Positions 20,029-52,150 of a DNA stretch of 64,000 nt are shown in pieces. How positions within the stretch are numbered: position 1 is the first letter of the stretch; each line of letters starts with the position of its first letter. Source of the DNA: Pseudonocardia broussonetiae (GTDB lineage: Bacteria; Actinomycetota; Actinomycetes; Mycobacteriales; Pseudonocardiaceae); contig NZ_CP053564.1 of NCBI RefSeq assembly GCF_013155125.1, forward strand, positions 6,579,501 to 6,643,500, in the 5' to 3' direction. The notes below the pieces were generated by a model. The model was given only the letters and a program-made list of their open reading frames with translations, did no database searches and was not told where the DNA came from. The position numbers and the translations under genes were made by a program.

Positions 20029-20095
20029 GCGCGTCCTCCTCGTCCTCGGGTGGGGCCATCCTGCCCCGCGGGACGGGCGCGTGCCGCGCGCCGGG

Positions 20096-20398: not shown

Positions 20399-20409
20399 GG
20401 ACTTCCCCC

Positions 20410-20431
20410 TGCTGTGATCGTGGACACAGCA
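20410..20431. promoter_or_regulatory. Inverted repeat in a divergent intergenic region
   Basis: Arms TGCTGTG and CACAGCA are separated by 8 bp, just upstream of the GTG of the 100-residue protein and about 50 bp before the methyltransferase start. It could be an operator for either gene. Confidence 0.4.
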
Positions 20432-20481
20432 GACGCTAGATCGCCCCGGCTGTTCACGGAAGGCCCCTACCGTCCGCGGAC

Positions 20482-21078: not shown

Positions 21079-21121
21079 GCACCCCACCCCCCGTTCTGCG
21101 GGCCCGGCGGGGGCTGCCAGG

Positions 21122-28641: not shown

Positions 28642-28841
28642 CTCGGCCCTCCTCGAAGTCGTGGTGCGTCGTCCACCAGATCGCGTTGGGGACACTCTGC
28701 CGTTATCCGCTCGGCGGCGGGATCGCTCGATCGTGTCGATCCTGGCGAACGGTCACGCTCGGTGGTCGCACCGGAGCCGCGTCGAGAAGTGTCGGACCGC
28801 CGCTCTAGCGTGTGGCCCCTACCGACCGGAGGGGGGCCACC

Positions 28842-32048: not shown

Positions 32049-32082
32049 GCACCGCCGACGCACTCTTCTCCGCGGAGGCGAC

Positions 32083-35000
32083 ATGAGCGCCGTCCTGGCC
32101 CCTGCCGCGTTCGACGTCTGCGCCGCCCTGCCCACCGGCACCACCGTCCTGGAGGCCAGCGCCGGCACCGGCAAGACGTTCACGATCGCCGCGCTCGCCG
32201 CGCGGTACGTGGCCGAGGGCCGGGCCGCGCTGCCCGAGCTGATGCTGGTCACCTTCGGCCGCGAGGCCACCACGGAGCTGCGGGAGCGGGTGCGGGAGCG
32301 GCTGGTCACGGCGGCCGACGGGCTGGCCGACCCGGTCGCCGCCCGCGCCGGGTCCGACGACGTCCTCGCCCTGCTGGCCGACGCGCCAGACGCCGAGATC
32401 GCGGCCCGGCGCGAGCGGCTCACCCGCGCGCTGGCCGGCTTCGACGCCGCCACGATCGCCACCACCCACCAGTTCTGCCAGCAGATGCTCGCCGGGCTCG
32501 GGGTGGCGGGCGACACCGATCCCGGCGCGGAGTTCGTGGAGTCGATCGACGACCTGATCTCCGAGGTCGTCGACGACTTCTACGTGCGCAAGTACGGGGC
32601 GCGCGGGGCGGGCACGCCGGCGTTCGGGCGGGTCGAGGCGGGCAAGCTGGCGCGTGCCGCGGTGCTCGACGGGCAGGCCCGGCTCGAGCCGGCGCACGCG
32701 CCCGACGGCTCCCCCGCGCAGGTGCGGCACCGGTTCGCGAGCGCGGTGCGCGGCGAGGTCGCGAAGCGCAAGCGCGAGCGGCGGCTCTACACCTACGACG
32801 ACATGCTCACGCGCCTGTCCGCGGCGCTGCAGGACCCCGACGGCACCGCGGCGCGGCGGCTGCGCGAGCGCTACCGCGTCGTGCTCGTCGACGAGTTCCA
32901 GGACACCGACCCGGTGCAGTGGCACATCCTGCGCACCGCGTTCCACGGGCACACGACGCTGGTCCTGATCGGCGACCCCAAGCAGGCGATCTACGCGTTC
33001 CGCGGCGCCGACGTCGTCAGCTACCTCGACGCCACCACCACGGCCGACCGGCACGCCACGCTGGCCCGCAACTGGCGCAGCGACGCCCCGCTGCTCGACG
33101 CCCTCGACGTCCTGTTCGACGGCGCCGCCCTGGGCGACGAGCGCATCCGCGTGCACCGCGTCGACGCCGCGCACCCCGTGCCGCGCCTGTCCGGGGCGCC
33201 CGTCGACACACCCGTCCGGATCCGGGTGCTCGGCCGCGACGGGCTGCCGCAGTCCGGGCGCAAGCTCGCGCTCGCTCCGCCGGCTCGGGCGCGGGTCGCG
33301 CGCGACTGCGCCGCGGAGGTCGCGGCGCTGCTCGCGAGCCCGGCGCAGCTCGACGGGCGCCCGGTGCAGCCCGGCGACGTCGCCGTCCTGGTGCGCACCA
33401 ACGAGCAGGCCTCGGTGGTGCGGGCCGCGCTGTCGGCCGTCGGGGTGCCGGCGGTGTCGTCGGGCACGGCGAGCGTGTTCGGCACGCCGGTCGCGCGGGA
33501 GTGGCTCACGATGCTGGAGGCGCTGGAGCAGCCGCGGGCGTTCCGGGTGCGGGCGGCGGCGCTCACCTGCTTCGTCGGGGTCACCGCGGCGCAGCTGTGC
33601 TCCGCCGATGCCGACGCCCTGCTCGACCACCTCGGCGGCACGCTGCGCGACTGGGCCGCGGTCCTGCACGGGCGCGGGGTGGCGGCGCTGCTGGAGGCCG
33701 TCACCGGCCCCTCGTCCGACGGCGCGGGGCTGCCCGAGCGGATCCTGCGCACCGCCGACGGCGAGCGCACGCTCACCGACCTGCGCCACGTCGCCCAGTC
33801 CCTGCACCACGCGGCCACCACGCAGCACCTCGGCCCGTCCGCGCTGGTCGACTGGCTGCGCCACCGCATCGCCGACGCCGCCACCGACGTGGGCAGCGAG
33901 CGCAGCAGGCGACTGGAGTCCGACGCCGCCGCGGTGCAGATCATCACGGTGCACCGCAGCAAGGGCCTCGAGTTCCCGGTCGTGCACGTGCCGTTCGCCT
34001 GGGACCGCTTCGTCGGCGACCCCGCCTTCCCGCTGCTGCACGACGCGCGCGGCGAGCGGGTGCTCGACGTCGGCGGCCCGACCGGCGAGTCGTGGGCCGA
34101 GCACTGCGACCGCCACCGCGCCGAGGAGGCCGGGGAGGACCTGCGGCTGCTCTACGTCGCACTCACCCGCGCCCGCAGCCAGGTCGTCACGTGGTGGGTG
34201 CCGGCCACCACCGTCGCGTCCTCGCCGCTGCACCGGGTGCTGTTCGGGCGCGGCTCGGGCGGCGCGCTCGCCGAGTCCTACAAGGTGCCCGCCGATCCCG
34301 CGGCGCTCGACGTGCTGCGCGGGCTGGCGTCCTCGACCACGGCGGTGGAGCCGGTCGGTCCGCCCGCCGAGCCGGTGTTCACCCCGCGCGAGCCCGCGGC
34401 CGTCGCGCCGGCGGTCGCGTCGTTCGACCGGGTGCTCGACACCGACTGGCGGCGCACGTCCTACACCGCGCTCACGGCCACCGCCGGGCACCACGCCCCG
34501 ACCGCGCTCACCGAGCCCGACGAGCCGCGCGTCGACGACGAGCCGGCACCCGACCCGTCCGACCCCGGCACCCCCGCCGACCCGGCCGTGCCCGGCGCCC
34601 TCGCGGTGCCGTCGCCGATGGGCGCGCTGCCGCTCGGGGCGGCGTTCGGCACGCTCGTGCACGCGGTGCTCGAGTCGGCCGACCTCACCGCGCCCGACCT
34701 CGCCGCCGAGCTCACCGCGCACGCGGCCGAGCAGTTGGCGTTCCGTCCGGTGGCCGGGCTCGACGCCCCGACGCTGGCCGCGGCGCTGCTGCCGTCGGTG
34801 CGCACGCCGCTGGGGCCGCTCGCGGACGGGCTGCGCCTGGCCGACGTCGCCCCGCGCGACCGCCTCGCCGAGCTCGACTTCGAGCTGCCGCTGGCCGGGG
34901 GCGACGACGCGTCCGGCCCGCCGCTCACGCTCGACGCGCTGGTGCCGCTGCTGCGCACGCACCTCGGGCCGGCCGACCCGCTGCACGCCTACGCCGACGA

Positions 35001-35430
35001 CCTCGCCGCGCTCGGGCCGTCGCCGCTGCGGGGGTACCTCACCGGCAGCATCGACGCGGTGCTGCGCCTGCCCTCGGGCGGCTTCGCGATCGTCGACTAC
35101 AAGACCAACTGGCTCGGCCCGCCCGGCGGCGTCGAGCCGCTCGTCGCCGCGCACTACACGCCGGGGCGCCTGGCCGAGGCCATGCGCGGCGCCCACTACC
35201 CGCTGCAGGCCCTGCTCTACGGGGTGGCGCTGCACCGCTACCTGCGCTGGCGCCTGCCCGCCTACGACCCCGCCCGCCACCTCGGCGGTGTGCTCTACCT
35301 GTTCGTGCGCGGGATGTGCGGGCCCGACACCCCGGTCGTCGACGGCGTGCCGTGCGGGGTGTTCAGCTGGGCCCCGCCGCCCGCGCTGGTCGCCGAGCTG
35401 TCCGCGCTGCTGGAGAGGGGTGCACCGTGA
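32083..35430 (+). CDS. recB: Exodeoxyribonuclease V subunit beta (RecB)
   Basis: A 1115-residue superfamily 1 helicase and nuclease, the 3'-5' motor and sole nuclease of RecBCD. The Walker A is EASAGTGKTFTIAA (about 23-36), Walker B is VVLVDEFQDTDPVQW near 265, then LIGDPKQAIYAFRGAD and the motif V/VI region ITVHRSKGLEFPVVHVPF and LLYVALTRAR. The C-terminal nuclease domain has GSIDAVLRLPSGG and IVDYKTNW near 985-1010, with the Asp and Lys of the PD-(D/E)XK site intact. The ATG at 32083 follows GGAGG. Its stop overlaps the recD GTG start (GTGA), so synthesis of RecB and RecD is likely coupled. Confidence 0.95.
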   Translation: MSAVLAPAAFDVCAALPTGTTVLEASAGTGKTFTIAALAARYVAEGRAALPELMLVTFGREATTELRERVRERLVTAADGLADPVAARAGSDDVLALLADAPDAEIAARRERLTRALAGFDAATIATTHQFCQQMLAGLGVAGDTDPGAEFVESIDDLISEVVDDFYVRKYGARGAGTPAFGRVEAGKLARAAVLDGQARLEPAHAPDGSPAQVRHRFASAVRGEVAKRKRERRLYTYDDMLTRLSAALQDPDGTAARRLRERYRVVLVDEFQDTDPVQWHILRTAFHGHTTLVLIGDPKQAIYAFRGADVVSYLDATTTADRHATLARNWRSDAPLLDALDVLFDGAALGDERIRVHRVDAAHPVPRLSGAPVDTPVRIRVLGRDGLPQSGRKLALAPPARARVARDCAAEVAALLASPAQLDGRPVQPGDVAVLVRTNEQASVVRAALSAVGVPAVSSGTASVFGTPVAREWLTMLEALEQPRAFRVRAAALTCFVGVTAAQLCSADADALLDHLGGTLRDWAAVLHGRGVAALLEAVTGPSSDGAGLPERILRTADGERTLTDLRHVAQSLHHAATTQHLGPSALVDWLRHRIADAATDVGSERSRRLESDAAAVQIITVHRSKGLEFPVVHVPFAWDRFVGDPAFPLLHDARGERVLDVGGPTGESWAEHCDRHRAEEAGEDLRLLYVALTRARSQVVTWWVPATTVASSPLHRVLFGRGSGGALAESYKVPADPAALDVLRGLASSTTAVEPVGPPAEPVFTPREPAAVAPAVASFDRVLDTDWRRTSYTALTATAGHHAPTALTEPDEPRVDDEPAPDPSDPGTPADPAVPGALAVPSPMGALPLGAAFGTLVHAVLESADLTAPDLAAELTAHAAEQLAFRPVAGLDAPTLAAALLPSVRTPLGPLADGLRLADVAPRDRLAELDFELPLAGGDDASGPPLTLDALVPLLRTHLGPADPLHAYADDLAALGPSPLRGYLTGSIDAVLRLPSGGFAIVDYKTNWLGPPGGVEPLVAAHYTPGRLAEAMRGAHYPLQALLYGVALHRYLRWRLPAYDPARHLGGVLYLFVRGMCGPDTPVVDGVPCGVFSWAPPPALVAELSALLERGAP

Positions 35431-37301
35431 CGGTCCCCGCCGCCCCTGTCCCCGTCGCCGCCGCCCCCGTGCCCGCCCCGGTCCTCACGCCCGCCGAGGC
35501 CGACCCGCACGACGCCCGCCTGGTGCTCGGGGGGTCGGGCCTGCTCGCGGTGTTCAACGCCGCCGGCGTCCTCGACGCCGCCGACGTCCACACCGCGCAG
35601 CGGGTCGGGCGGCTCGGCGGCGAGTCCGACGAGGCGGTGCTGCTCGCCGTCGCGCTGGCCGTGCGGGCGGTGCGGCTGGGGTCGGTCTGCGTCGACCTCG
35701 CCGCGGCCGACCGCACCGTCCTGGGCGAGGGCGACGAGCTCCTCGACGTCTCGGCCCTGCCCTGGCCCGAGCCCGGCGCGTGGCACGCCGCCTGCCTGGC
35801 CGGGCCGCTGGTGGCCGACGGCGCCGACGCCCCGGCCGGGCGCCCGCTGCGGATGGTCGCCGGGCAGCTCTACCTGGAGCGCTACTGGCGCGAGGAGGAG
35901 CTCGTGCGGCTCTCCCTGCGCGAGCGGGCCGCCGCCGCGCCGCCCGCGCACGACCTCGCCGCGCTGCGCGCCGGCCTCGACGCGCTGTTCCCCGACCCGC
36001 TCGCGCTGCGCCAGCGCCAGGCCGCCGCCGTGGCGTCGCTGCGGCGCGTCACCGTGCTCGCCGGCGGCCCGGGCACCGGCAAGACCACCACCGTCGCGGC
36101 GCTGCTGACGCTGCTGCTCGACCAGCCCGGCCCGTCGCCGCGCATCGCGCTGGCCGCACCCACCGGCAAGGCCGCGGCCCGGCTGCAGGAGGCGGTCGCC
36201 GAGCGCCTGTCCCCCGCGCACCGCGAGCGGGTTGCCGAGGCCTCCACGCTGCACCGGCTGCTGGGCTGGCGGCCCGGCGGCGGCTCCGGGGCGTTCCGGC
36301 ACGACCGCACGCTCCGGCTGCCCTACGACGTGGTCGTCGTCGACGAGACGTCGATGGTGTCGCTGACGATGATGGCGCGGCTGCTCGACGCGGTGCGCCC
36401 CGAAGCCCGCCTCGTGCTGGTCGGCGACCCCGACCAGCTCGCCTCGGTCGAGGCCGGTGCGGTGCTGGGCGACCTCGCGCGCGCCGCGGGCCGCCCCGAG
36501 CCCGCCCTCGACAGCGCGCTCGCCGCGCTCGCCGTCCCCACCGGCGTGGTGCACGGCGTCGTCACCCTCGACCACGTCTGGCGCTTCGACGGCGCCATCG
36601 CCGAGCTCGCCCGCGCGGTGCAGGCGGGCGACGCCGAGCGCGCGCTGGCCGTCCTGCGCCGCGGCGATCCGGCGCTCGCGTTCACCGACGACGACGGCCC
36701 GGCGGCCGTCGAGGGAGCGCGGGCCGACGTCGTCGCAGCCGGCCGTGCGCTCGCCGACGCCGCGCGCGCCGGTGACGTCGACGCCGCGGTCGCCGGTCTC
36801 GACGCCCACCGCGTGCTGTGCGCGCACCGCCGCGGCCCGTACGGGGTGGCGCGCTGGACCCTCGACGTCGACCGCTGGCTCGGCCACGGCGGCGCCGCTC
36901 GCGAGCCCTGGTGGCCCGGCCGCGCGGTGCTGGTCACCACCAACGACTACGACGCCGGCCTGTTCAACGGCGACACCGGCGTCGCCGTCACCACCCCCGA
37001 CGGCCTGCGCGTGGCCTTCGCCCGCGGCGGCCCGCCCACCCTGTTCGCCCCGTCGCGGCTGTCGGAGGTCACCGGCGTGCACGCGATGACCGTGCACCGC
37101 GGGCAGGGCAGCCAGTTCACGCGCGTCACCGTGGTCCTGCCGCCCGCCGAGTCGCCCCTGCTCACCCGCGAGCTCCTCTACACCGCGGTCACCCGCGCCA
37201 AGGACTTCGTGCGGGTGGTGGGCACCGCCGACGCCGTGCGGGCGGCGGTGGAGCGGCCGGTCGCCCGGGCGAGTGGGCTGCGGCACCGGCTCGACTCCTG
37301 A
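35427..37301 (+). CDS. recD: Exodeoxyribonuclease V subunit alpha (RecD)
   Basis: A 624-residue superfamily 1B helicase, the 5'-3' motor of RecBCD. After an Ala/Pro-rich N-terminal tail of about 25 residues comes the N-terminal domain that contacts RecC. Walker A is LAGGPGTGKTTTVAALL (about 212-228), then APTGKAAARLQEAV, Walker B VVVDETSMVSLTMMARLL, LVGDPDQLASVEAGAVL and the C-terminal VHAMTVHRGQGSQF and LLYTAVTRAKDFV. All helicase motifs are present. The start is a GTG overlapping the recB stop by 4 bp. It ends the operon; the following lipoprotein gene is convergent. Confidence 0.95.
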   Translation: MTVPAAPVPVAAAPVPAPVLTPAEADPHDARLVLGGSGLLAVFNAAGVLDAADVHTAQRVGRLGGESDEAVLLAVALAVRAVRLGSVCVDLAAADRTVLGEGDELLDVSALPWPEPGAWHAACLAGPLVADGADAPAGRPLRMVAGQLYLERYWREEELVRLSLRERAAAAPPAHDLAALRAGLDALFPDPLALRQRQAAAVASLRRVTVLAGGPGTGKTTTVAALLTLLLDQPGPSPRIALAAPTGKAAARLQEAVAERLSPAHRERVAEASTLHRLLGWRPGGGSGAFRHDRTLRLPYDVVVVDETSMVSLTMMARLLDAVRPEARLVLVGDPDQLASVEAGAVLGDLARAAGRPEPALDSALAALAVPTGVVHGVVTLDHVWRFDGAIAELARAVQAGDAERALAVLRRGDPALAFTDDDGPAAVEGARADVVAAGRALADAARAGDVDAAVAGLDAHRVLCAHRRGPYGVARWTLDVDRWLGHGGAAREPWWPGRAVLVTTNDYDAGLFNGDTGVAVTTPDGLRVAFARGGPPTLFAPSRLSEVTGVHAMTVHRGQGSQFTRVTVVLPPAESPLLTRELLYTAVTRAKDFVRVVGTADAVRAAVERPVARASGLRHRLDS

Positions 37302-37888: not shown

Positions 37889-38860
37889 TCAGGCCGCCGC
37901 GAACGCCGCCCGCCGCAGCGCCCGGTACATCAGCGCGGGGTCGCCGAGGCGGCGGCGCAGGGCGCGCTCCAGCCCGGCGATCGGGTAGAGGTTCTGCGGC
38001 GCGCGGGAGTCCTTGTAGGCGGAGGAGGCGAAGCGCGGGATCGTCGCCTGGCTGACGTCGGCGAGCGCGACGACCAGCTCCGGCGCCAGCTCGCCGCCGC
38101 ACTCCACCCGCACCACCCCGGCCCACGGGGCGCCCGGCGGGCACGGCAGCCGCAGGTACCAGGTGTGGCGGTGCAGGGCGCGGTCGCTCTCGGGCTGCTC
38201 GAGGCGGAACACCGGCGTGCGCTGCGCCGGGCCCAGCTGCGCCACGACCGCGTTGAGCGCGGGCGGGAGGTAGGTGCGGGCGTGGGTCTTGACCAGCCCG
38301 AGCGCGCGGGGCAGGTGCAGGCGCCCGAGCGCGCCGTCGACGACGATCAGGTCGTCCTCGGCGCCGTGCTCGTCGCGGGCGCCCGCGGCGACGAGGAGCT
38401 CGGTCTCCTGCATCCGCGTCTGCACCGCGACGCTCAGCGCCTTGCCCGGGTCCTCCCCCGCCCGACCGGGTTCGACGCGGGTGCAGGCGTAGGTGCCCGC
38501 CGGGGTGGTGACGTCGACGCCGTCGGGCGAGCTCGTGACCAGGCCGCGCCGCACCTCGGCCCGCACCAGGTGCGCGCCGTCGTCGGTGCAGCAGCACACG
38601 ACGCCCGCGGCGTAGGAGGCGCACAGCGCCGGCGAGGCGGTGCCGTCGCTCTCGTCGACCCAGACCTGCGCGTCGGTGCGGCGCACGCCGTCGACGAACA
38701 GCACCCGCGAGGGCGGGAGCACGCCGGGCGTCGGGTCGACCGGCCCCCACTCCTCGGCCGGCCGCTCCAGCCCGACCACGGCCTCGACCCGCGAGGGCTC
38801 CAGGTCGGTGCCGACGCTGGTGCCGTAGGACGGGTCCCACGGGTCGACGGAGAACCTCAT
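37889..38860 (-). CDS. nurA: NurA-like nuclease
   Basis: A 323-residue protein that fits the NurA nuclease fold, the partner of HerA in resecting DNA ends. The first catalytic strand is VLFVDGVRR with Asp57, the second is LIVVDGALGR with Asp175, and both are DG motifs as in NurA. The late pattern WAGVVRVECGGELAP, then NLYPIAGLERALRRR near the C-terminus, matches the family ending. There is no signal peptide. Its ATG lies 10 bp after the sbcC stop, making an sbcD-sbcC-nurA operon, with the HerA-like gene upstream on the same strand. I am fairly sure of the family from motifs and context; a profile search would settle it. Confidence 0.75.
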   Translation of the reverse strand: MRFSVDPWDPSYGTSVGTDLEPSRVEAVVGLERPAEEWGPVDPTPGVLPPSRVLFVDGVRRTDAQVWVDESDGTASPALCASYAAGVVCCCTDDGAHLVRAEVRRGLVTSSPDGVDVTTPAGTYACTRVEPGRAGEDPGKALSVAVQTRMQETELLVAAGARDEHGAEDDLIVVDGALGRLHLPRALGLVKTHARTYLPPALNAVVAQLGPAQRTPVFRLEQPESDRALHRHTWYLRLPCPPGAPWAGVVRVECGGELAPELVVALADVSQATIPRFASSAYKDSRAPQNLYPIAGLERALRRRLGDPALMYRALRRAAFAAA

Positions 38861-38870
38861 GGCGCCACCC

Positions 38871-41800
38871 TCACAGGTCCTCCCGCGTGACCGACGACGT
38901 GCGCTGGTCGCGCCCCACCCGGAACCGCACCGGCACCCGCTCGGCCAGCGCCGGCACGTGCGTGACGACCCCGACCATCCGGTCGCCGCGGGCCGCCAGG
39001 TTCTCCAGCGTGCTCGCGACGACCTCGAGGTTGGCCTCGTCGAGCGTGCCGAAACCCTCGTCCAGGAAGATCGACTCCAGCCGCGCGGCGCCGCGGGCGG
39101 CGAGCCCGGACATCTGCGCGGACAGGGCCAGGGCGAGCGCGAGGCTGGCCTGGAACGTCTCCCCGCCCGACAGCGTCTTGACCGGCCGCCGCGCGTCGGC
39201 GTCGGCGTGGTCGATCACCAGGAACTCGCCGTGGTCGTGGGTGAGCGCGAACTGCCCGCCCGACAGCTCGGCGAGGCTGGTGGACGCGTCGGCCACCAGC
39301 GCGTCGAGCGCGGAGGCGACCAGCCAGCGCGGGAAGCCGTCGGAGCGCAGCAGCCCGCCCAGCATCTTCGCGACCTGCTGGGCCTCCTCGGCGGCGTCGC
39401 GGTCGGCCGCGATCCGCTCCGCGGTGGCCTTCCGCTCGGCCAGCCGCGCGTGCGCGCCCCGCGCCCGCTCGACGGCCGCGGCGACCACGCTGCGCGCGGC
39501 CGCCGGGTCGGCGTCGTCGCCGCGCGCGTTCCCGGCTCCCGCGGCCTCCCGGGCCCGCGCAGGACCCGGTTCGGCGCGCGGGAGGACGAGGTCGTGGGCC
39601 GCCAGGTCGTCCACCAGCGCGGCCACCGCGGCCTCGCGGGCCTCGCGCGCGGCGCGGGCGGCGCCGTCGGCCGCGGTCCAGCGGGTGCGGCGGTCGGCGA
39701 CCGCGTCGGACGCCCAGCCCACCAGCGTGCCCCAGGCGGCGCCCAGGTCGTCGCCGGTGACGGCCGGGGCCCCGAGCGGGACGAGCGGGTCGCGGGCCGT
39801 GCGCAGCGCCGCCCAGGCCGCGGCGACCTCGTCGGCCACCTGTGCGGCGTCGCGCTCGGCCGCGCGCAGGGCGGTGCGGGCGGAGCGCAGCGCGGCGTCG
39901 GAGGTGCGGGCGGCGTCCTCCAGGACGCTGCGGCGGGCCAGGTCGCGGGCGGCGTCGGCGTCGGACGGCGCGCCGTCGAGCGCGGTGCGCAGCTCGGCGA
40001 GCCGCGCCTGCACCCCGTCGACGGCCCCGCGCGCCTCCTGCTCGGCACGCGCGGCCGCCGTCTCCTCGGCGCGCCGCTCGGTGGCGGCGCGGTCGGCCGC
40101 GTGCAGCGCGCGCCCGGCCGCGTCGGACTCCCCGTCGGCGGCGGCCACCGCGGCCCGCGCCGACGCCAGCGACGCGTCCCGGGCCTCGGCCTGCTCCGCC
40201 GCCCACGCGACGAGCGCGGTCCAGCCGGCGAGCACGTCGTCGTCGGCGACGGCGGGCGCCCCGAACGGGACGAGCGGGTCGCGGGCGGTGCGCAGCGCGG
40301 CCGCCGCCCCCGCCGCGTCGGCCCGCACGGCCTCGACCTCGCGCGCCTCGGCCTCCCGCTCGCGGCGCGCCGCGCGGACGGCGGTGTCGGCCTCGCGCGC
40401 CGCGCGCTCGGCCTCGTCGAGCCGGGCGAGCTCCCGCTCGACGGTGGCGGCGTCGGGCTCGGGGCGCAGCCGGGCCAGCGCGGCGTCGAGCCGCTCGTGC
40501 TCGGCGGCGGCGCGGGCCAGCGCGGCGGCGGCCGCCGCCTCGTGCGCGCGGGCCGTGTCGTGCGCGGCCGCCGCGTCGGCGACGGCCTGCTCCGCCCCCG
40601 GGTCGGCGGGCGCCCCGGGCGGCGGCAGCGTCGCGACCGCCTGCGCGCACACCGGGCACGGCTCCCCCACGGCCAGCGCGGGGCGCAGCGTCGCGGCGAC
40701 GTCGGCGCGCTGGACCTCCGCGCGCCGGCCCTCGGCGTGCTCGAGCGCGTGCCGCGCCGTGCGCACCCGACCGGTCGCCTCGGCGGCGGCCCGCTCGGCG
40801 GCGGCGAGCGACCCGGCGGCCGACTCCTGCTCCCGCAGGAGCGTCGCGCGCTCGGCGTGCTCGCGCCGCGCCTGCTCCAGCGGGGCGCGGGCCGGAGCGG
40901 CGTCGAGCGCGTCGCGGGCGCGCGTGTCGGCGGCCTCGGCCGCGGCCAGCGCGGTGTCGGCGACGGCCAGCGCGGCGACCGCGGCGCTGCGGCGTCGGCC
41001 CAGCGCGTCGAGGCCCGCGGGGACGGCGAGCGCGCGCAGCCCGTCGCGCTCCCCGACGAGCCGGCGGACGGTCTCCCCCGCCGTCGCCGCGGCGGTGGCG
41101 GCGGCGTCGCGGACCGCGCGGGCGGTGTCGAGCGCGGTGCGGGCGTCGGCGGCGTCGCGGGCGGCGGTGTCGTAGGCGGCGAGGGACTTGGCGTGCCGGT
41201 CGCGCAGGCCGGGGAGGTCGGCGGTGAGCGACGCGAGCTCGGCGTGCCGCGCGCGCACCAGCTCCAACGGGCCGCGCTCGGGGGCGGCGGCGAGCGCGTC
41301 GCGGGCGGCGGTGTCGGCCTCCTCGGCGTCGGCGTGGGCGGTGGCGGCGGTGGTGAGCGCGGCGGCGGCCGCGGCGCGCCGGGCGTCGAGGCCCGCCAGG
41401 TCGTCGGGCGCGACGAGCGCCGCGAGCACGGTGCCCTCGGCGCGGATCCGGGTGGCGTCGGCCTCGGCCGCGGCCTGCGCGGCGGCGGCCGCCTCCACCT
41501 GCGGCACGAGCGCGTCGACCCGCCCCGCCAGCGCCACCAGCGCCTCCACCCGCTCCTGCGCGGCCGCCTCGGCCTCCGCGGTGGCGTCGGCGTAGCCCGC
41601 GAGCTGCTCGCCGAGCACGTCGGCGCGCTGGCGCGCCGCGGAGGCCTCGCTGTTGGCCTCGCGCGCGATCTGGTCGTAGAGCCCGAGCCCGAGGATCCGG
41701 ACCAGCTTCTCCTGGCGCTTGCGCGGCTCGGTGTGCAGGAATTCCGCGAAGTCGCCCTGGGGCAGCACGACGCACGTCGTGAAGTCGCCGAAGGGCAGGC

Positions 41801-42224
41801 CGAGCAGCTCCTCGACGGCCGTGGTGACGCCGCCCGCGCCGTCGGCCAGCGGCTCGGTCTCGTCGTCGACGCCGCCCTCGGCCGACGGGTCGCGCAGCCG
41901 CTCCAGCCGTGCCGACCGCACCGACACCGCGCCCGACGCCGCCCGCCGCAGCTCCCGCGCGGCGACGTAGCGCGCGCCGCCGACGTCGAACACGAGCGTG
42001 ACGGTGCCCCGCCCGGCCGTCGGGGCGAGCGCCAGCGACACCGTCCGCTGGTTGTCCCACCGCGGCACCGACCCGTAGAGGGCGAACGTGATCGCGTCGA
42101 TCACCGTGGACTTGCCCGAGCCGGTGGGCCCGACGAGAGCGAAGTACTCGGCGCCGGTGAAGTCGACGACCGTGCGCTCGCGGAAGGACGCGAAGCCGTC
42201 GAGGACCAGGCGGACGGGCTTCAT
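38871..42224 (-). CDS. sbcC: Exonuclease SbcCD subunit C (Rad50-like SMC ATPase)
   Basis: A 1117-residue SMC-type ATPase that holds DNA ends for the SbcD nuclease. The Walker A is ALVGPTGSGKSTVIDAITFA (near 30-50), with WDNQRTVSL next. A Q-loop region VVLPQGDFAEFLHT is near 150. Two very long Ala/Arg/Glu coiled-coil arms flank a zinc hook, PCPVCAQAV, at about residue 520. The C-terminal half has the signature KTLSGGETFQASLALALALS and Walker B SIFLDEGFGTLDE. The ATG overlaps the sbcD stop by 4 bp (ATGA), so the two are coupled. The frame continues upstream but the N-terminus MKPVRLVLDGFASF is that of the family. Confidence 0.94.
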   Translation of the reverse strand: MKPVRLVLDGFASFRERTVVDFTGAEYFALVGPTGSGKSTVIDAITFALYGSVPRWDNQRTVSLALAPTAGRGTVTLVFDVGGARYVAARELRRAASGAVSVRSARLERLRDPSAEGGVDDETEPLADGAGGVTTAVEELLGLPFGDFTTCVVLPQGDFAEFLHTEPRKRQEKLVRILGLGLYDQIAREANSEASAARQRADVLGEQLAGYADATAEAEAAAQERVEALVALAGRVDALVPQVEAAAAAQAAAEADATRIRAEGTVLAALVAPDDLAGLDARRAAAAAALTTAATAHADAEEADTAARDALAAAPERGPLELVRARHAELASLTADLPGLRDRHAKSLAAYDTAARDAADARTALDTARAVRDAAATAAATAGETVRRLVGERDGLRALAVPAGLDALGRRRSAAVAALAVADTALAAAEAADTRARDALDAAPARAPLEQARREHAERATLLREQESAAGSLAAAERAAAEATGRVRTARHALEHAEGRRAEVQRADVAATLRPALAVGEPCPVCAQAVATLPPPGAPADPGAEQAVADAAAAHDTARAHEAAAAAALARAAAEHERLDAALARLRPEPDAATVERELARLDEAERAAREADTAVRAARREREAEAREVEAVRADAAGAAAALRTARDPLVPFGAPAVADDDVLAGWTALVAWAAEQAEARDASLASARAAVAAADGESDAAGRALHAADRAATERRAEETAAARAEQEARGAVDGVQARLAELRTALDGAPSDADAARDLARRSVLEDAARTSDAALRSARTALRAAERDAAQVADEVAAAWAALRTARDPLVPLGAPAVTGDDLGAAWGTLVGWASDAVADRRTRWTAADGAARAAREAREAAVAALVDDLAAHDLVLPRAEPGPARAREAAGAGNARGDDADPAAARSVVAAAVERARGAHARLAERKATAERIAADRDAAEEAQQVAKMLGGLLRSDGFPRWLVASALDALVADASTSLAELSGGQFALTHDHGEFLVIDHADADARRPVKTLSGGETFQASLALALALSAQMSGLAARGAARLESIFLDEGFGTLDEANLEVVASTLENLAARGDRMVGVVTHVPALAERVPVRFRVGRDQRTSSVTREDL

Positions 42225-43411
42225 CCGGACCCCCGGTCGTGCCCGGACACGGTGTCGTGCCCGGACACCTTGTCGTGCAGCGTGCGGAACAGCGTCTCCA
42301 CGCGCGGGTCGGCCACGCCCTTCGTGCCCAGGTACTCGGTGAACAGCTCCGACGGGCTGCGCTCGGCCCCGCCCCCGGACGGCCGCGACGCCTCCGGCAC
42401 GGCGGCGAACTCGGGGTCGATGCGCACCTCGAGCGCGTTCGGCAGCACCGCCGTCACCTCCTCCCGCAGCCCGGCGCGGGCGGGCTCGGTGACCCACACG
42501 CGCAACCAGTCGTCCCCGACCGTGCCAGACAGCACCGACAGTTCCGCGACGGTGCCGCGCACGGTCCGCAGCCGGCGCCCCGACGTGACCGGGATGTCGG
42601 TGATCCGCGCGGGCGTCGACGGGGTGGCCTCGACCAGGCAGACGACGGGCTGGTTCTGCTGCTCCCCGAAGTCGACGGCGAGCGGCGCGCCGGAGTAGTG
42701 GACGGGGCACGGCGCCTCCATCCGCTGGCGGCGGTGCAGGTGGCCCAGGGCGACGTAGTGCGCCTCGATCGGGAAGATGCTCGCCGGCACCGCGTACTCG
42801 AAGATCGACTGCGCGGCGCGCTCGCCGCCGCCGAACGTCCCGTTCAGCACGGTCAGGTGGGCCATGACGAGGTTGACGCCGTCGTCGCGGAAGCCGGCGG
42901 TGAGGGTGCCGAGGACGTCGCGCAGGTTCTGGTCGTAGGCGTTCGTGTTCTCGCCCGGGGTCTGCGCGACGAGGTCGGCCGCGCGCACGGCGTAGCGCTG
43001 GGAGAGGAACGGCAGGACGGCGACGGTCACGGGCTCGCCGGTCGACCGCGCGTCGAAGCGCACGACGCCACCGCGGTCGGCCGTCCGCACCTCGCCGACC
43101 AGCGTGATCCCCGACGCCGACGCCAGCGGGCGGTACGCGTCGAGCGCGCGGGCGTGGTCGTGGTTGCCGGCGATCGCGATGACCTCCGCACCCGTCGCGG
43201 CCAGCCCCATCAGCGTGCGGATGACGAGCTTCTGGGCCTCGGCGGAGGGCGCGGCGGTGTCGTAGAGGTCGCCCGCGACGAGCACTGCGTCGACCTCCTG
43301 CTCCCGCGCGATCGCCACGATCTCGCGCAGCACCCGCTCCTGCTCCTCCAGCCGCGAGTGGCCCTTGAGCGTCTTGCCGACGTGCCAGTCGGCGGTGTGC
43401 AGGAAGCGCAT
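42221..43411 (-). CDS. sbcD: Exonuclease SbcCD subunit D (Mre11-like nuclease)
   Basis: A 396-residue manganese-dependent phosphoesterase, the nuclease of SbcCD, which opens hairpins and trims blocked DNA ends. The metal-binding motifs are all there: FLHTADWHVG (Asp8, His10), LVAGDLYDTAAPS, IAGNHDHARAL and the late ALGHLHRRQ. The C-terminal capping domain follows. The last 18 residues contain SGHD repeats encoded by a 17-nt DNA repeat, an oddity with no evident role. The ATG at 43411 starts exactly at the family motif. It overlaps sbcC by 4 bp and is divergent from the glyoxalase-like gene. Confidence 0.94.
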   Translation of the reverse strand: MRFLHTADWHVGKTLKGHSRLEEQERVLREIVAIAREQEVDAVLVAGDLYDTAAPSAEAQKLVIRTLMGLAATGAEVIAIAGNHDHARALDAYRPLASASGITLVGEVRTADRGGVVRFDARSTGEPVTVAVLPFLSQRYAVRAADLVAQTPGENTNAYDQNLRDVLGTLTAGFRDDGVNLVMAHLTVLNGTFGGGERAAQSIFEYAVPASIFPIEAHYVALGHLHRRQRMEAPCPVHYSGAPLAVDFGEQQNQPVVCLVEATPSTPARITDIPVTSGRRLRTVRGTVAELSVLSGTVGDDWLRVWVTEPARAGLREEVTAVLPNALEVRIDPEFAAVPEASRPSGGGAERSPSELFTEYLGTKGVADPRVETLFRTLHDKVSGHDTVSGHDRGSG

Positions 43412-43471
43412 AGGGCGACGATCGTAGGCGGGCCCTGTGTTCTGTCGGGGGTCGGTGCCACTCTGTCGGCC

Positions 43472-44233
43472 ATGCCCACCCGAGACGCCCCCTGGCCCGC
43501 CGGAACGCCGTGCTGGGTCGACCACGCCGCGCCCGACGTCGATGCCGCCACCGCGTTCTACGGCCCTGTGCTGGGGTGGTCGTTCGTCGACACCGGCGAG
43601 CAGTTCGGCCACTACACGCTCGCGCAGGTCGGCGGGCGGTCGGCCGCGGCGCTCGGCCCGGCGCAGCCCGGGCAGCCCGCGGCCTGGACGCTGTACCTGG
43701 CCAGCGACGACGCCGCCGCCACCGCACGGGCGGTCACCGAGCACGGCGGCACCGTGCTCGTGGAGCCGTTCGAGATCCCGGGCAACGGGCACCTCGGCAC
43801 GGCGCTCGACACCTCCGGCGCCGCGTTCGGCATCTGGCAGCACGGCGGCACGATCGGCGCCGAGGTCCACGGCGAGCCCGGCGCGCTGCTCTGGGAGGAC
43901 GCCCGCCTCACCGACCCCGTGGCGGGGCAGGAGTTCTACGCGTCGGTCTTCGGCTGGACCTACGACGCCGTCCCCGGCGCCCCCGACGACTACGCCACCT
44001 TCTCCGTCGGCGGGGAGATCGCGGGCGGCATCGGCGGCATGATGGGCGCCCCCGCCGGCACGCCCAGCCACTGGCTGCCCTACTTCATGGTGTCCGACGT
44101 CGACGCGGCGGTGGCCGCGGCGGTCGGCGCGTCGGTGCCGATGCCGCCCACCGACACCCCGTTCGGGCGGATGGCGATCCTGGTCGACCCCTTCGATGCG
44201 AGCTTCGCGGTGCACGGGGGGATGGAAGGCTGA
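43472..44233 (+). CDS. VOC family protein (glyoxalase/bleomycin-resistance-like)
   Basis: A 253-residue protein made of two vicinal-oxygen-chelate domains (about 10-122 and 133-250). Each has the beta-alpha-beta-beta-beta pattern: WVDHAAPDVDAATAFYGPVLGW in the first and TDPVAGQEFYASVFGWTYD in the second. Paired domains can form one metal site for an enzyme such as a dioxygenase or glyoxalase, or a binding pocket for a toxic ligand; the substrate is unknown. It is the only plus-strand gene between the HerA-like gene and sbcD, splitting what would be a continuous minus-strand operon. It ends just before a strong hairpin. Confidence 0.88.
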   Translation: MPTRDAPWPAGTPCWVDHAAPDVDAATAFYGPVLGWSFVDTGEQFGHYTLAQVGGRSAAALGPAQPGQPAAWTLYLASDDAAATARAVTEHGGTVLVEPFEIPGNGHLGTALDTSGAAFGIWQHGGTIGAEVHGEPGALLWEDARLTDPVAGQEFYASVFGWTYDAVPGAPDDYATFSVGGEIAGGIGGMMGAPAGTPSHWLPYFMVSDVDAAVAAAVGASVPMPPTDTPFGRMAILVDPFDASFAVHGGMEG

Positions 44234-44240
44234 CGCGTCA

Positions 44241-44286
44241 GCCGTGAGTGGCAACGAGTGCCCTGGCACTCGTTGCCGCTCACGGC
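44241..44286. terminator. Bidirectional hairpin terminator
   Basis: Arms of 22 nt (beginning GCCGTGAGTGGCAACG and ending CGTTGCCGCTCACGGC) pair with one T/C mismatch around a 2-nt loop. It lies between the convergent VOC and HerA-like genes and abuts the HerA-like stop codon. Confidence 0.8.
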
Positions 44287-46023
44287 CTAGAACGGCGCGT
44301 CGTCGTCCTCCGCACCCGCCGGGAGGCGGGCGAAGGGGTCCCTCGCCGTCGCCGCGTGCCCGTTCGTCGACGCCGGCGCCCCGGCGCTCTCCGAGAGCCG
44401 CGTCGCCCACGCCGGGAACGGGAACTCCACCGCCAGCGGCACCGGGATCTCGGGCTGCGAGACGAACATCGTCCCGGGCTTCGCCAGCACCGCCCGCGCC
44501 CGCTGCGAGGGCGGGAGGAAGCCGTACTCGGGGCGCCCGGCCTCGGCGGGGTCGAGCCGCCCGACCACCTTGATCGAGGAGTTCGACACGATCCGCCGCT
44601 CCACCTCCGACGCCGTCTGCTGCGCGCCGATCAGGATGATGCCGAGCGAGCGCCCGCGCTCGGCGATGTCGAGCAGCACCTCCTTGATCGGCGACGAGCC
44701 CTCGCGCGGGGCGTACTTGTTCAGCTCGTCGATCATCGTGAACAGCAGCCCCGCCGCCCCGGCCTGCTCCTTGCGCGCGGTCTCCGCGGCCAGCACCACG
44801 CCGACGACGAAGCGCTGGGCGCGCTCGGGCAGGTTGTGCAGGTCGACGACCGTGACCTGCTGGTTCTCCGTGCTCACCCGCCGCCCCGGCGCGTCGGCGA
44901 GGTCGCCGCGGACGATCGTGCGCAGCGGCTTGAGCGAGGAGCGAAGGCGGCGCAGGAACGCGTTGACCGTGCCGATGCCGGTGACGGGGCCGGCCCAGTC
45001 GCGGCGGGCGTCCTCGTCGGCGAGCCGGTCGGCGACGAACTCGACGAGCGCGTCGTAGCTGCGCAGCGTCTGCCCCTCGACGACTACGGCGCCGTCGGCG
45101 ACGGGCACGGCGACCCGCTTCAGCCGGGCCGCGACCTGGTGGATCACCATCGTGTACTGGTTGCGCTCGTCCTCGGCGTCGGCGAACACGAACGGCAGCA
45201 GCTCACCGGAGCAGAACTCGGCGAGCGTCCACCAGAACGCCGCCACCCCGCTCGTGCGCCCGCTGACGTACGGGCGGCCGGTGGGGTCGTCGGGCGTGGG
45301 CGGGGCGAAGAAGCCGGCCGAGGAGAACGGCGAGGCCGGCAGGTTCAGGCGGGCGTAGCGGGCGCGCTGCTCGTCGTCGAGCCGGGCGTTGGCGTGGTCG
45401 AGGAACAGCAGGTCCTCGCCCTTGACGCTGAACACGAGCGCCTTCGCGTTCACCGCGCGCCGTCCGAGCACCCCGGAGCGGAAGATCGAGTAGAGCAGGA
45501 ACAGCGCGAAGCTGGTCTTCGTCGCCACGCCGGAGATGCCGCTGATGGAGACGTGGCCGCCGCGGGTGCCGTCGAGGAACTCCAGGTTGACGAAGATCGG
45601 CTCCCCGTCGCGGCCGAGGCCGACGGGCACCTTGAGGTCCATCTTGTCGAAGTAGAGGGCCTGCGCGCGCTCGTGGCCGGTGGCGCGGCGGACGGGCGAG
45701 CCGGGCGTCGGCGGCACGTAGACCTCGGGCTCGACCCGGGTGGTCGTGATCTCGGCGACCTCCTGCACCTGCGCGGGCAGCACGCCGTCGGCGATGAGGA
45801 AGACGTCGGAGCCGAAGGTGGCGCCCTCGTGCCGCGCCCGCACCTCGGTGACCACCCCGGACGTCGTCACGGCGCCGTGCCCGGGCACCGACCGCTGCGT
45901 GACGACCACGTCGTCGAGCTGCAGGTACTCCCCCGGCTGCAGGGCGACGCAGAACTGCAGCGGCGTCGAGTCCTCCGTGCCGACGACGAGTCCGACGGGC
46001 GACGGGGTGGGCGGGGACGACAC
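44287..46023 (-). CDS. herA: HerA-like ATPase (HAS barrel + DUF87-type ATPase)
   Basis: A 578-residue hexameric-pump type ATPase related to HerA, the DNA translocase that works with NurA. Residues about 8-70 (VGLVVGTEDSTPLQFCVAL, then GEYLQLDDVVVTQ) have the HAS-barrel pattern. The P-loop is GISGVATKTSF near 190, a variant in which Thr replaces the Gly before Lys. Walker B is LLFTMIDELNKYAP near 450, followed by ERGRSLGIILIGAQQTASEV. The C-terminal 40 residues are acidic and flexible. In transcription order it precedes sbcD, sbcC and the NurA-like gene, with one opposing gene between. It is divergent from a hypothetical gene. Confidence 0.85.
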   Translation of the reverse strand: MSSPPTPSPVGLVVGTEDSTPLQFCVALQPGEYLQLDDVVVTQRSVPGHGAVTTSGVVTEVRARHEGATFGSDVFLIADGVLPAQVQEVAEITTTRVEPEVYVPPTPGSPVRRATGHERAQALYFDKMDLKVPVGLGRDGEPIFVNLEFLDGTRGGHVSISGISGVATKTSFALFLLYSIFRSGVLGRRAVNAKALVFSVKGEDLLFLDHANARLDDEQRARYARLNLPASPFSSAGFFAPPTPDDPTGRPYVSGRTSGVAAFWWTLAEFCSGELLPFVFADAEDERNQYTMVIHQVAARLKRVAVPVADGAVVVEGQTLRSYDALVEFVADRLADEDARRDWAGPVTGIGTVNAFLRRLRSSLKPLRTIVRGDLADAPGRRVSTENQQVTVVDLHNLPERAQRFVVGVVLAAETARKEQAGAAGLLFTMIDELNKYAPREGSSPIKEVLLDIAERGRSLGIILIGAQQTASEVERRIVSNSSIKVVGRLDPAEAGRPEYGFLPPSQRARAVLAKPGTMFVSQPEIPVPLAVEFPFPAWATRLSESAGAPASTNGHAATARDPFARLPAGAEDDDAPF

Positions 46024-46100: not shown

Positions 46101-46688
46101 ATGACCGAGCCCAGGTTCGATCTCGGCTGGATGGACGACGTGATCCGGGGTCTGCACTCCCTGACCTCCGACCAGGTCCCCGCCCTGGAGATCACCCTGC
46201 TCGACGCGGTGGTCGACTGGCTGTTCTCGCCGCAGAACCCGCAGACCGCCGACCCGCAGGCCGAGTACGACGAGTCGCACGCGGGCACGCTGGTCTCCAC
46301 GATGTTCACCGCCGTCGACACCTCGCGGACGTTCCTGCCGAAGCAGGAGCCCGCCGTCACCGACGCGATCACGGCGGCGCGGGCCCGGATGGTCGACGGC
46401 GCGCACGAGCTGTCGGCGCAGGGCCCCGAGGGCATCTCGATCCTGGTGTCGCGCGCGATGCCCGCGGTGCTCGCCGAGCTGAGCGGCAACTCCGGCGAGC
46501 GCGCCAAGCAGGCCCACGGCGTCTTCGTCTACCTGCTCTACACGCTCGCGCTGGGCACCCGCACCGAGCACGACCCGGTCGTCATGGACGGGGTCGTCGA
46601 GGCGTTCGTCGGATGGGACGGCGTGCTGCGCGGCGGGTACGCCCTCCCCTGGCGCCCCGCCCGCCCCGCCGAGGATCAGGCCGAGTAG
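46101..46688 (+). CDS. Hypothetical protein
   Basis: A 195-residue, largely helical cytosolic protein that I cannot assign. It starts MTEPRFDLGWMDDVIRGLH after a GGGGAGAGGA site. Acidic and Trp-containing segments (VVDWLFSPQNPQTADPQAE) give way to a long helix pair (TAARARMVDGAHELSA and ERAKQAHGVFVYLLYTLALG). No catalytic motif is visible. It is divergent from the HerA-like gene, with about 77 bp between starts, which may mean shared control. Its last 13 bp overlap the end of the convergent SRPBCC gene. Confidence 0.7.
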   Translation: MTEPRFDLGWMDDVIRGLHSLTSDQVPALEITLLDAVVDWLFSPQNPQTADPQAEYDESHAGTLVSTMFTAVDTSRTFLPKQEPAVTDAITAARARMVDGAHELSAQGPEGISILVSRAMPAVLAELSGNSGERAKQAHGVFVYLLYTLALGTRTEHDPVVMDGVVEAFVGWDGVLRGGYALPWRPARPAEDQAE

Positions 46689-47113: not shown

Positions 47114-47955
47114 CAGGCGGTTCCTCTCGGGCGGAGACGGTTCTTGAAGGCTCGGGTCTGCTCGGTCAGCGCGATCTCGGTGGGCAGGCGCTCCATGGAC
47201 GACGCGCCGTAGAAGCCGTGGCAGTACCGGGTGCGCTCCAGCACGTGGGCGGCGTCGTCGGGCGAGGAGATCGGCCCGCCGTGGCAGAGCACGAGGACGT
47301 CGTCGCGCACCTCCCGCGCGGCCGCGGACCACTCGTCGATCAGCGCGACGCAGTCGTCCAGGGTCTTGGCGGTGCCCGCCCCGATCGCGCCGCCGGTGGT
47401 CAGGCCCATGTGGCAGACGACGAGGTCGGCGCCGGCGCGCGCCATCACGCGCGCGTCGTCGGCGGAGAAGACGTAGGGGGTGGTGAGCAGGTCGGCGGCG
47501 TGGGCGGCGGCGATCATGTCGACCTCCAGCCCGAATCCCATCCCGGTCTCCTCGAGGTTGGCGCGGAAGACGCCGTCGATGAGGCCGACGGTCGGGAAGT
47601 TCTGCACGCCCGCGAAGCCGAGGTCGGCGAGCTCGCGCAGGAAGCGGTCGGTGAGCAGGAAGGGGTCGGTGCCGTTGACGCCCGCGAGCACCGGGGTGCG
47701 CTCGACGACCGGCAGCACCTCCGCGGCCATCTCGACGACGATCTCGTTGGCGTTGCCGTAGGCCAGCAGCCCGGCCAGCGAGCCGCGGCCGGCCATCCGG
47801 TAGCGGCCGGAGTTGTAGATGACGATGAGGTCGATGCCGCCGGCCTCCTCGCACTTGGCCGACAGGCCGGTGCCCGCGCCGCCGCCGACGATGGGCTCGC
47901 CGCGGGCGGCCATGTCGGCGAAGCGCTCGACGAGCTCGGCGCGCCGGAACCTCAC
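47113..47955 (-). CDS. Phosphoenolpyruvate hydrolase family protein (TIM barrel)
   Basis: A 280-residue TIM-barrel protein of the group related to PEP mutase and hydrolase. The family parts are [32 protein letters not shown] (GAGTG and YNSGRYRM at about 20-50), [23 protein letters not shown] and [12 protein letters not shown] [19 protein letters not shown]. Its exact reaction is not known, and PEP hydrolysis is inferred by homology only. The start is a GTG overlapping the Tm-1-like stop by 4 bp. Pairing with a Tm-1-like gene is a recurring arrangement, sometimes fused into one protein elsewhere. Confidence 0.88.
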
Positions 47956-49121
47956 TCCGACACCTCCCGCCACGCGTCGAGGACCGCGTCGGCGAACTCC
48001 GGGTCGTTGACGTGGTGCGGCACCCGGCGCACGATCCCCGGCCGCGCGTCCTTCTCGACCGCGGAGAACAGCGCCTCGTCGGCCTCCGGGTCGTGAAACG
48101 GCTGGCCGGGCGCGTCGAGCGCGGAGACGCCGCCGGTCGGCAGCAGGAACAGCGCCGGCCCCGTCATCGCGTTGAGCTTGCGGGCCAGGAACTCCCCGAC
48201 GGCGACGTTCTCCGCCGGGGTCGTCCGCATGAGCGTGACCTGCGCGTTGTGCACGTAGAGCAGCCTCCCGTCGAAGCGCCCGGGCACGTCGGCCCCGAAG
48301 TTGACCATGTCCAGCGCCCCGCACGATCCCACGTACGGCACGCCGGTGCGCGCGACGGCGTCGAGCCGGTCCTCCCCCGCGGCCATCACGCCGCCGACGA
48401 GGAGGTCGGCGATCTCGGTGGTGGTGAGGTCGAGGACGCCGCCGATCAGCCCGTCGTCGACGAGCTTCTCCATCGCGCGCCCGCCGGTGCCGGTGGCGTG
48501 GAAGACGAGCGCGTCGACGTCGTCGCCGAGGCGCTCGCGGACGTGGGTGACGCACGGCGTCGTCACGCCGAACATGGTGAGCCCGACGGCCGGGCGGTCG
48601 TCCGCGGCGGGCACCCGGTGGGTGAGCATCCCGACCAGCGCGTGCGCGGCGTTGGCGAGCACGCGCCGGGAGATGCGGTTGAGCCCGGCGACGTCGGTGA
48701 CCGAGTGCAGCATCGCGATGTCCGACGCCCCGACGTAGGGCGCGACGTCACCGGACGCCACCGTCGACACCATGATCTTCGGGACGCCCACGGGCAGCGC
48801 CCGCATCGCCGGCGCCACGATCGCGGTGCCGCCGGAACCGCCGAGCCCGAGGATCCCGGCGACGTCGTCGCGGGCGCGGATCCAGTGCTCCAGCGCGACG
48901 GACATCGCGCTCACGGCCGTGCCGCGGTCGCCGGTGAACACGGCGCCGGCGCCGTCGGGGTGGGCCGCGGCGACCTCGGCGGCTGGCACGTCACCCCCGC
49001 TCGACGGGCCGGTGGAGACGTCGACGAGCCGCGCCTCCACCCCCGCCGCCCGCAGCAGGTCGGCCGCGTACGCGAGCTCCGCGGCCTTGGTGTCCAGGGT
49101 GCCGACGACGTAGGCGATCAC
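47952..49121 (-). CDS. Tm-1-like ATP-binding domain protein (UPF0261)
   Basis: A 389-residue protein of the family named after tomato Tm-1, whose N-terminal domain binds ATP and inhibits tobamovirus replication; bacterial function is unknown. It begins [23 protein letters not shown] and has [20 protein letters not shown] (about 93-112), [18 protein letters not shown] and [17 protein letters not shown]. The C-terminal half includes [16 protein letters not shown] and [10 protein letters not shown]. The GTG at 49121 is first of a three-gene operon with the PEP-hydrolase-like and SRPBCC genes, each overlapping the next. The divergent nuclease gene starts about 80 bp away. Confidence 0.9.
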
Positions 49122-52134: not shown

Positions 52135-52150
52135 CCCGACCACTCCCTCA

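Follow-up and report, generated by a model that had tools for sequence, protein, structure and literature searches.

A probable Mre11-Rad50-HerA-NurA end-resection gene set in Pseudonocardia broussonetiae and other Actinomycetota, with an SSB-like tip on HerA

We analysed a 64,000-nucleotide stretch of the Pseudonocardia broussonetiae genome (contig NZ_CP053564.1, positions 6,579,501 to 6,643,500; this whole stretch is referred to as the window), in which the open reading frames (ORFs) of four minus-strand genes follow one another in the order herA-sbcD-sbcC-nurA. Our reading, to which we assign a probability of roughly 0.7, is that the set encodes a bacterial four-protein DNA-end-resection module of the Mre11-Rad50-HerA-NurA type. 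The module is known by family; what sequence comparison appears to add is that its SbcD belongs to a private lineage, that the genes come in two orders, that some species have damage-type promoters, and that HerA bears a tip resembling the end of SSB. No description of a bacterial HerA-NurA-SbcCD operon was found in the literature at the level of titles and abstract openings, and the cellular role of bacterial HerA-NurA is called controversial in PMC9960219.

The names NurA and HerA are settled, because both proteins match their Deinococcus radiodurans counterparts over the full length with the catalytic residues kept. The Pfam NurA profile scored the window protein at 19.5 bits, under its cut-off of 21; it matched 25 of 43 aligned rows at E≤0.01, the window row included (best 2e-6), and a PF09376 search across the window's genome gave nothing at E≤0.001. 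A profile of 20 NurA relatives, instead, matched D. radiodurans NurA (drNurA; PDB chain 7f6d_H) with E 2.3e-35 over profile positions 32-317. Judged by the Pfam cut-off alone the NurA call would fall, whereas full-length homology to proven proteins upholds it. In the profile alignment, which supplies our residue numbers (the PDB chain has a 20-residue offset), drNurA D53, K201 and R309 align with D57, K191 and R286 of the window protein; W8, D57, K191 and R286 are invariant in the 43 rows. Changing K201 or R309 of drNurA abolishes nuclease activity, like an earlier change of D53 (PMC9960219). An initial annotation of the window had called NurA from two DG motifs and a late YP-containing motif. 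It named the protein correctly, its first DG holds D57 and its second the invariant D175, and the late motif that has a proven counterpart is KDSRAPQN (R286), which lies before the YP.

HerA behaved similarly. Pfam DUF87 reached only E 0.25 against the window protein, and the HAS-barrel profile found 3 of 26 HerA rows at E≤0.1 (best 0.0021), with the window protein not among them; a profile of 18 HerA relatives, however, matched D. radiodurans HerA (drHerA; 7f6d_B) at E 3.9e-162 over positions 4-544, nearly its whole length. The window protein carries the Walker A motif GISGVATKTS (K169, T170) and the Walker B acids D432/E433. These, together with R440 and R497, correspond to drHerA K175/T176 (Walker A), D487/E488 (Walker B), R495 and R552 (DNA pore), as assigned in PMC9960219. 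R440 is kept in at least 90% of 26 aligned rows, and the other Walker and pore residues are invariant.

The remaining two proteins are SbcD and SbcC, the Mre11 and Rad50 relatives. SbcD scored 187.5 bits against TIGR00619 (cut-off 77.65). The best NCBIfam match of SbcC was TIGR00618 (E 1e-70; 239 bits, under the cut-off of 478.5), and the protein exceeds the Pfam cut-offs of AAA_23 and SbcC_Walker_B. All of the Mre11/Rad50 motifs sought were present, including the phosphoesterase motifs, both ABC ATPase halves and the CPVC zinc hook.

The coordinates and strand of the four genes are as initially annotated, as are the 4-bp overlap of sbcD and sbcC (42221-42224) and the 10-bp gap between sbcC and nurA (38861-38870). 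The initial annotation had further proposed an archaeal-style order, a single operon and a single end-resection machine. The order stands, both in the window and in its relatives. The single operon does not hold here: an opposite-strand gene (43472-44233) splits herA from sbcD, and so herA and sbcDC-nurA cannot share a transcript by simple layout; judged by that layout, they are two units in this genome. The single machine keeps its genomic backing as a four-protein unit, from co-occurrence, two gene orders and an SbcD clade, but not that of a single operon in the window.

We surveyed loci gathered with the NurA alignment (80 kept of 167 confirmed). Their labels comprise 26 Pseudonocardia, many Amycolatopsis, Frankia-type loci, two each of Kineosporia, Microlunatus and Mycobacterium, several deep Actinomycetota metagenome-assembled genomes (MAGs) and one Gemmatimonas MAG. 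One MAG with an Acidobacteria label (L044) is identical in sequence to a contig of a genome listed in the window's phylum (G010), and therefore gives no evidence for the set in another phylum; the label of the single Gemmatimonas MAG (L080) may likewise be wrong. The complete row herA-sbcD-sbcC-nurA on one strand (type I) was found in 48 of the 80 loci, the other 32 being cut contigs or stretches with no herA. Of the 48 full loci, 37 have a herA-sbcD gap of ≤300 bp (median 69), and a single compact row is therefore the norm; sbcC ends ≤200 bp before nurA in 62 of 78 loci. Deeper Actinomycetota show a second order, nurA-herA-sbcD-sbcC (type II). By our reading NurA stands directly before HerA in 17 phylum genomes; 13 of these loci were fetched, and sbcD and sbcC directly follow herA in 12, while the contig of the thirteenth stops after herA.

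Co-occurrence was equally close. In a class sample of 197 genomes, full-length HerA (E < 1e-284), both NurA ends and this type of SbcD occur in the identical 13 genomes, a count that omits 59 of the 72 genomes with any HerA match, namely 18-41-bit fragments mostly in frames of more than 1000 codons. NurA matches were found in 14 genomes: the same 13 (in two pieces in four of them) and one with C-terminal pieces alone. The HerA-like gene has a nuclease partner of the NurA family in all 13 class genomes with full-length HerA. Across a phylum sample of 149 genomes, a NurA match was always accompanied by a HerA match (34 genomes); seven of these NurA matches are weak and partial and belong to one family. 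HerA matches without NurA came from ten phylum genomes, as three short fragments, six members of the family with the weak NurA matches, and one full-length protein (G067). The 48 ordered loci, and the same 13 class genomes for HerA, SbcD type and NurA ends, place the arrangement far beyond chance, and a four-protein unit is supported by these genomic comparisons. Two possible relics were seen besides: C-terminal nurA pieces in G318 (contig C159:16556-16923), without full HerA or cluster SbcD, perhaps a decayed copy, and two N-terminal herA-like pieces in G156 (contig C44:31766-31986), perhaps a decayed herA.

The SbcD of the set is distinct from the ordinary enzyme. Cluster SbcDs in the 13 class genomes are ≥53% identical to that of the window (53-69% for the 12 others), and the remaining SbcDs among the matches listed reach ≤44%, with 28-39% in long matches. 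At least seven of the 13 cluster genomes encode an ordinary SbcD as well. In a quick, unrooted tree without bootstrap (66 rows: 34 type I, 12 type II and 20 ordinary), the sequences fell on three sides with 2 changes in all; the ordinary rows split off at support 100, and type II alone had support 55, with two long branches. The separate side of the tree, and the presence of these proteins beside ordinary SbcD, indicate that the SbcD of the set is a private lineage apart from the ordinary (housekeeping) actinobacterial SbcD, from which it differs as a separate clade of the same family.

Thermophilic archaea carry their genes in the order herA-mre11-rad50-nurA, and type I shares with that cluster both the four protein families and the order. 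Clustering and co-transcription of the archaeal genes are reported in PMC2288612. The bacterial sets differ in pairing bacterial-type SbcCD with HerA and NurA, in having a second order, and, in the window, in the opposite-strand gene. That bacteria acquired the operon from archaea, as the initial annotation had allowed, draws on the common order, and we regard it as very improbable. SbcD matches bacterial SbcD models at E 8e-56 versus 1e-14 for archaeal Mre11, a difference of ~40 orders of magnitude; two type II SbcDs show the same preference, and SbcC likewise fits bacterial models better. HerA and NurA match the Deinococcus proteins, which are said to be <20% identical to the archaeal ones (PMC9960219). 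On these comparisons a recent archaeal origin appears unlikely. In one bacterial order nurA comes last, and in the other it comes first; the order common to type I and archaea may be an ancestral relic, as the initial annotation also allowed, or may have arisen repeatedly.

The upstream regions of herA and sbcD offered a separate line of evidence. We scanned for TGTCRGTG-N8-TA, which we take to be the core of the PafBC-bound promoter. The PafBC-bound promoter is the RecA-independent promoter of actinobacteria (RecA-NDp), as described in PMC8223512 and PMC6789036. Exact cores were rare, 9 in 3.4 million strand-bases of loci and still 9 in 3.8 million when later loci were included, and eight of the nine precede herA or sbcD. 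Five lie 20-106 bp before herA on the coding strand; three lie ~30 bp before sbcD, also on the coding strand, in loci where no adjoining herA was seen; the ninth is inside sbcD, and none precedes nurA. Counted per distinct start region, exact cores were found at 5/88 herA, 3/85 sbcD and 0/89 nurA starts, against ~0.06 expected for each from the all-loci rate, and allowing one mismatch gave 10/75, 6/86 and 1/89, respectively. The exact sites come from four genera. Sister species recur among the matching loci, with two species of Kineosporia and five of Amycolatopsis at herA and six of Pseudonocardia at sbcD. In the window itself, 54 matches with ≤2 mismatches were found versus 32 expected. These sites before herA or sbcD in relatives seem to be new, and they point to probable control of the set by DNA damage, at least in some of the species. 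A LexA box before herA was considered and not used: it matched 7 of 79 start regions at ≤2 mismatches, four of them being the window and near copies, and some of the regions were misplaced.

The main rival reading, which we consider fairly unlikely, is that the set is a defence or element-borne nuclease module, in which SbcCD would sense odd phage or plasmid ends or replication intermediates and HerA-NurA would degrade them. Patchy occurrence fits this idea, as do copies on plasmids. A Streptomyces sp. BB1-1-1 plasmid (L188:2980-11382 and 13878-21447) carries the type I four-gene set near a restriction endonuclease and beside a TIGR02678/02679/02680-DUF2397 set that is presumably Wadjet-like; Sphaerospermopsis (Cyanobacteriota) has the type II order on a conjugative plasmid; and a Ca. 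Chlorohelix (Chloroflexota) plasmid (L190:5062-13119) carries in a row an ImmA/IrrE gene, an unnamed gene, a HerA relative, sbcD and an SMC-type ATPase. Plasmid carriage is nevertheless exceptional: among 72,556 plasmid records only 6 held a HerA relative, and one of these 6 measures 11.9 Mb; the contig with the window copy is no shorter than 6.6 Mb. Viral contigs gave four distant relatives (26-29% identity) and phage records two partial ones. When the four proteins were scanned with the PADLOC MADS profiles, mad8 scored 40.5 bits against HerA and mad3 83.5 bits against SbcC; however, the mad3 match covers the ATPase motif region and mad8 matches HerA and SbcC alike, and therefore these matches reflect ATPase families in general. 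The damage-type promoter sites suggest repair.

It is also conceivable, though we think it improbable, that two independent systems are neighbours for joint regulation alone, with SbcCD clearing hairpins or blocked ends and HerA-NurA resecting. The separate herA unit in the window is in keeping with this, as are 13 genomes in which herA is missing from the fetched NurA stretch: one full-length HerA lies elsewhere in 12 of them, and therefore close linkage of herA is not essential. Yet these genomes still retain both parts (12/13), and the SbcD involved is that of the private clade, not the housekeeping one. Binding of the Mre11-HerA type has been reported from Sulfolobus acidocaldarius (PMC2288612).

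If the four proteins act as a resection module, SbcCD, of Mre11-Rad50 type, would open or clean the broken end, and the SbcD serving here would be that of the private lineage, not the housekeeping enzyme. Working in a complex with SbcCD, the HerA hexamer would pull duplex DNA through its ring and feed it to the NurA dimer, and NurA would cut the 5' strand, leaving a 3' tail for RecA. The HerA tips, six per ring on flexible tails, might hold an SSB-binding protein, with RecO as the candidate, such that RecA loads at once. Resection activity of the D. radiodurans NurA-HerA complex has been published (PMC9960219).

The tip on which this last step depends was identified at the C-terminus of HerA. 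The window protein ends in DPFARLPAGAEDDDAPF, its last residues being EDDDAPF. An acid pair followed by terminal PF was found in 118 of the 120 nearest HerA homologues and in the HerA of all 13 class genomes; the best-scoring SSBs of the same 13 genomes, that of the window's genome included, end in DEPPF or EEPPF. HerA in two genomes ends in DDDIPF, which is the C-terminal hexapeptide of E. coli SSB (PMC5872125). After rows that were cut or of odd length had been dropped (5/82 HerA, 6/116 SbcD and 2/99 NurA), the acid pair with PF was present in 48 of 77 HerAs, PF alone in 6 and neither in 23; for the 72 distinct complete proteins the numbers were 44, 6 and 22. The ending was absent from all 98 NurA proteins, all 111 SbcD proteins and each of the 897 remaining ORFs of the loci, which include antisense frames. 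Tip-less HerAs are deep type I and type II forms, and the majority terminate at a DPFEGL-like motif or shortly beyond it. The state of the end requires 3 changes on the HerA tree, with one PGF end scored as a tip, and L151 and L152, whose ends are weak, may represent separate origins. As in bacterial SSB, acidic residues and a terminal P-F follow a variable linker; the tip of HerA, in contrast, sits on a ring-shaped motor and that of SSB on an OB-fold protein, and binding by the HerA tip is predicted only. An SSB-like acidic -PF tip on HerA seems to be new, as no description of such a tail was found in titles and abstract openings. Among the tails of L134-L150, a DPFEGL-type motif was seen at or near the end of most forms without the tip.

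RecO was found in 13/13 genomes with the set and RecJ in 0/13, which makes RecO the best candidate partner of the tip. Judging from these protein ends and gene contents, the most likely use of the tip would be to hold a normally SSB-binding protein, with RecO the best candidate, at the fresh single strand. We offer, as a tentative proposal, that the HerA of Actinomycetes, with a six-fold SSB tail near the NurA exit, recruits RecO (or another SSB partner) or hands it to the new 3' strand, as part of a self-contained, damage-induced machine parallel to RecBCD. A doubtful alternative is that, instead of mimicking SSB, the tip acts as a clasp between adjacent subunits of the ring, like the C-terminal extension of S. 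solfataricus HerA, which embraces the next subunit (PMC9960219). The DPF motif just before the tip is conserved more widely than the tip, even in tip-less forms, which is in keeping with such a clasp. Nevertheless, HerA resembles SSB in pairing a linker of changing length and composition with a constant extreme C-terminus; two genomes carry the exact E. coli SSB hexapeptide there; and the last 14 residues of drHerA are described as disordered and are thought too short to reach a neighbour (PMC9960219).

Several observations weigh against our reading of the set as a resection module, or against parts of it. The set is patchy (13/197 class genomes), and it is not the sole resection system, because recCBD adjoins it. 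D. radiodurans and Thermus mutants in nurA or herA are reported to show modest or even improved resistance (PMC9960219). Of the NurA-binding acids of drHerA (D78, E80 and D81), D78 alone is kept (D73), the other two positions being F75 and L76 in the window protein; by the account of its authors, these acids align poorly outside Deinococcus (PMC9960219). The window has no exact PafBC-type site, and the regions directly upstream of its herA and sbcD hold no correctly oriented one. The tip is missing from 22 of the 72 distinct HerAs fetched, and where present it could serve inside the hexamer instead. Distances among HerA, NurA and SbcD correlate with r 0.90-0.95 (49 loci), which fits a unit, but shared ancestry alone would be expected to give much of this correlation.

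Among known systems, the set is close to D. radiodurans NurA-HerA (PDB 7F6D, 7WRW, 7WRX), with which it shares homology of both proteins over nearly the whole length, the unusual Walker A sequence, the NurA catalytic residues and the HerA pore arginines. It differs in the two NurA-binding acids that are not kept, and in that the four genes form one set in the window's lineage; the connection of sbcCD with HerA-NurA in Deinococcus is left open in PMC4663267. The SSB-like tip is a feature of actinobacterial HerA, the end letters of drHerA lying outside this comparison. RecBCD, AdnAB and AddAB likely perform the same task, resection of broken ends, with no proteins in common with the set. By their layout, the genomes suggest that one SbcCD lineage goes with HerA-NurA. 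Mesophilic bacteria would thus be hosts for ordinary genetics on a four-protein machine known from heat-loving archaea, with recBCD beside the set as a built-in comparison, and the tip suggests a simple coupling of resection to RecA loading.

Table 1. Features of the herA-sbcD-sbcC-nurA region and the adjoining recCBD genes (positions within the window).
Feature	Positions	Strand	Remarks
herA, HerA/FtsK-type ATPase, 578 amino acids	44287..46023	-	full-length match to D. radiodurans HerA
last 25 HerA residues: variable linker, DPF motif, SSB-like acidic tip (DDDAPF)	44287..44364	-	
glyoxalase/VOC-family gene, not one of the four	43472..44233	+	PF00903
60-bp region between divergent VOC gene and sbcD	43412..43471	-	likely place of the sbcD promoter
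sbcD, Mre11 relative, 396 amino acids	42221..43411	-	member of the SbcD clade found with HerA/NurA
sbcC, Rad50 relative, 1117 amino acids	38871..42224	-	Walker A, CPVC zinc hook, LSGGE signature, Walker B
nurA nuclease, 323 amino acids	37889..38860	-	W8, D57, D175, K191, R286 conserved
recC	28812-32048	+	
recB	32083-35430	+	
recD	to 37301	+	

The neighbours of the set were followed for named proteins, as crude gene calls mix sense and antisense frames. A complete recC-recB-recD operon (28812-37301; PF04257 217 bits, TIGR00609 711 bits, TIGR01447 467 bits) lies tail to tail with nurA, and the presence of two end-resection systems side by side argues that the four-gene set is no stand-in for RecBCD. 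Fifteen of the 26 Pseudonocardia loci have a convergent recD on the far side of nurA; it is missing in at least five that extend 10 kb beyond nurA, and some other loci are short. The opposite-strand VOC gene (PF00903, E 7e-11) is convergent with herA and divergent from sbcD, 60 bp before it. Twelve further Pseudonocardia loci have a homologue close to the set, in varying places: it lies in the herA-sbcD gap (L001-L003), between sbcC and nurA (L015, L042, L048, L051, L052) or beside herA (L006, L010, L191, L197). By its placement it appears to be a genus-level companion that shifts position.

Upstream of herA and divergent from it, a gene for a 195-residue protein (46101-46688, +) was seen, among the loci, in the nearest relatives alone; together with the next two genes it is confined to near relatives, apart from one weak match. 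An ImmA/IrrE gene lies near the set in the window, and also on the Streptomyces sp. BB1-1-1 and Ca. Chlorohelix plasmids. Further out, the window encodes a UPF0261 protein (47952-49121, -), an ARPP-1 domain protein (51397-52143, -), a protein with NYN and OST-HTH/LOTUS domains (52822-53934, +), and a helicase with ResIII, Helicase_C and DUF3427 domains (53963-55909, -).

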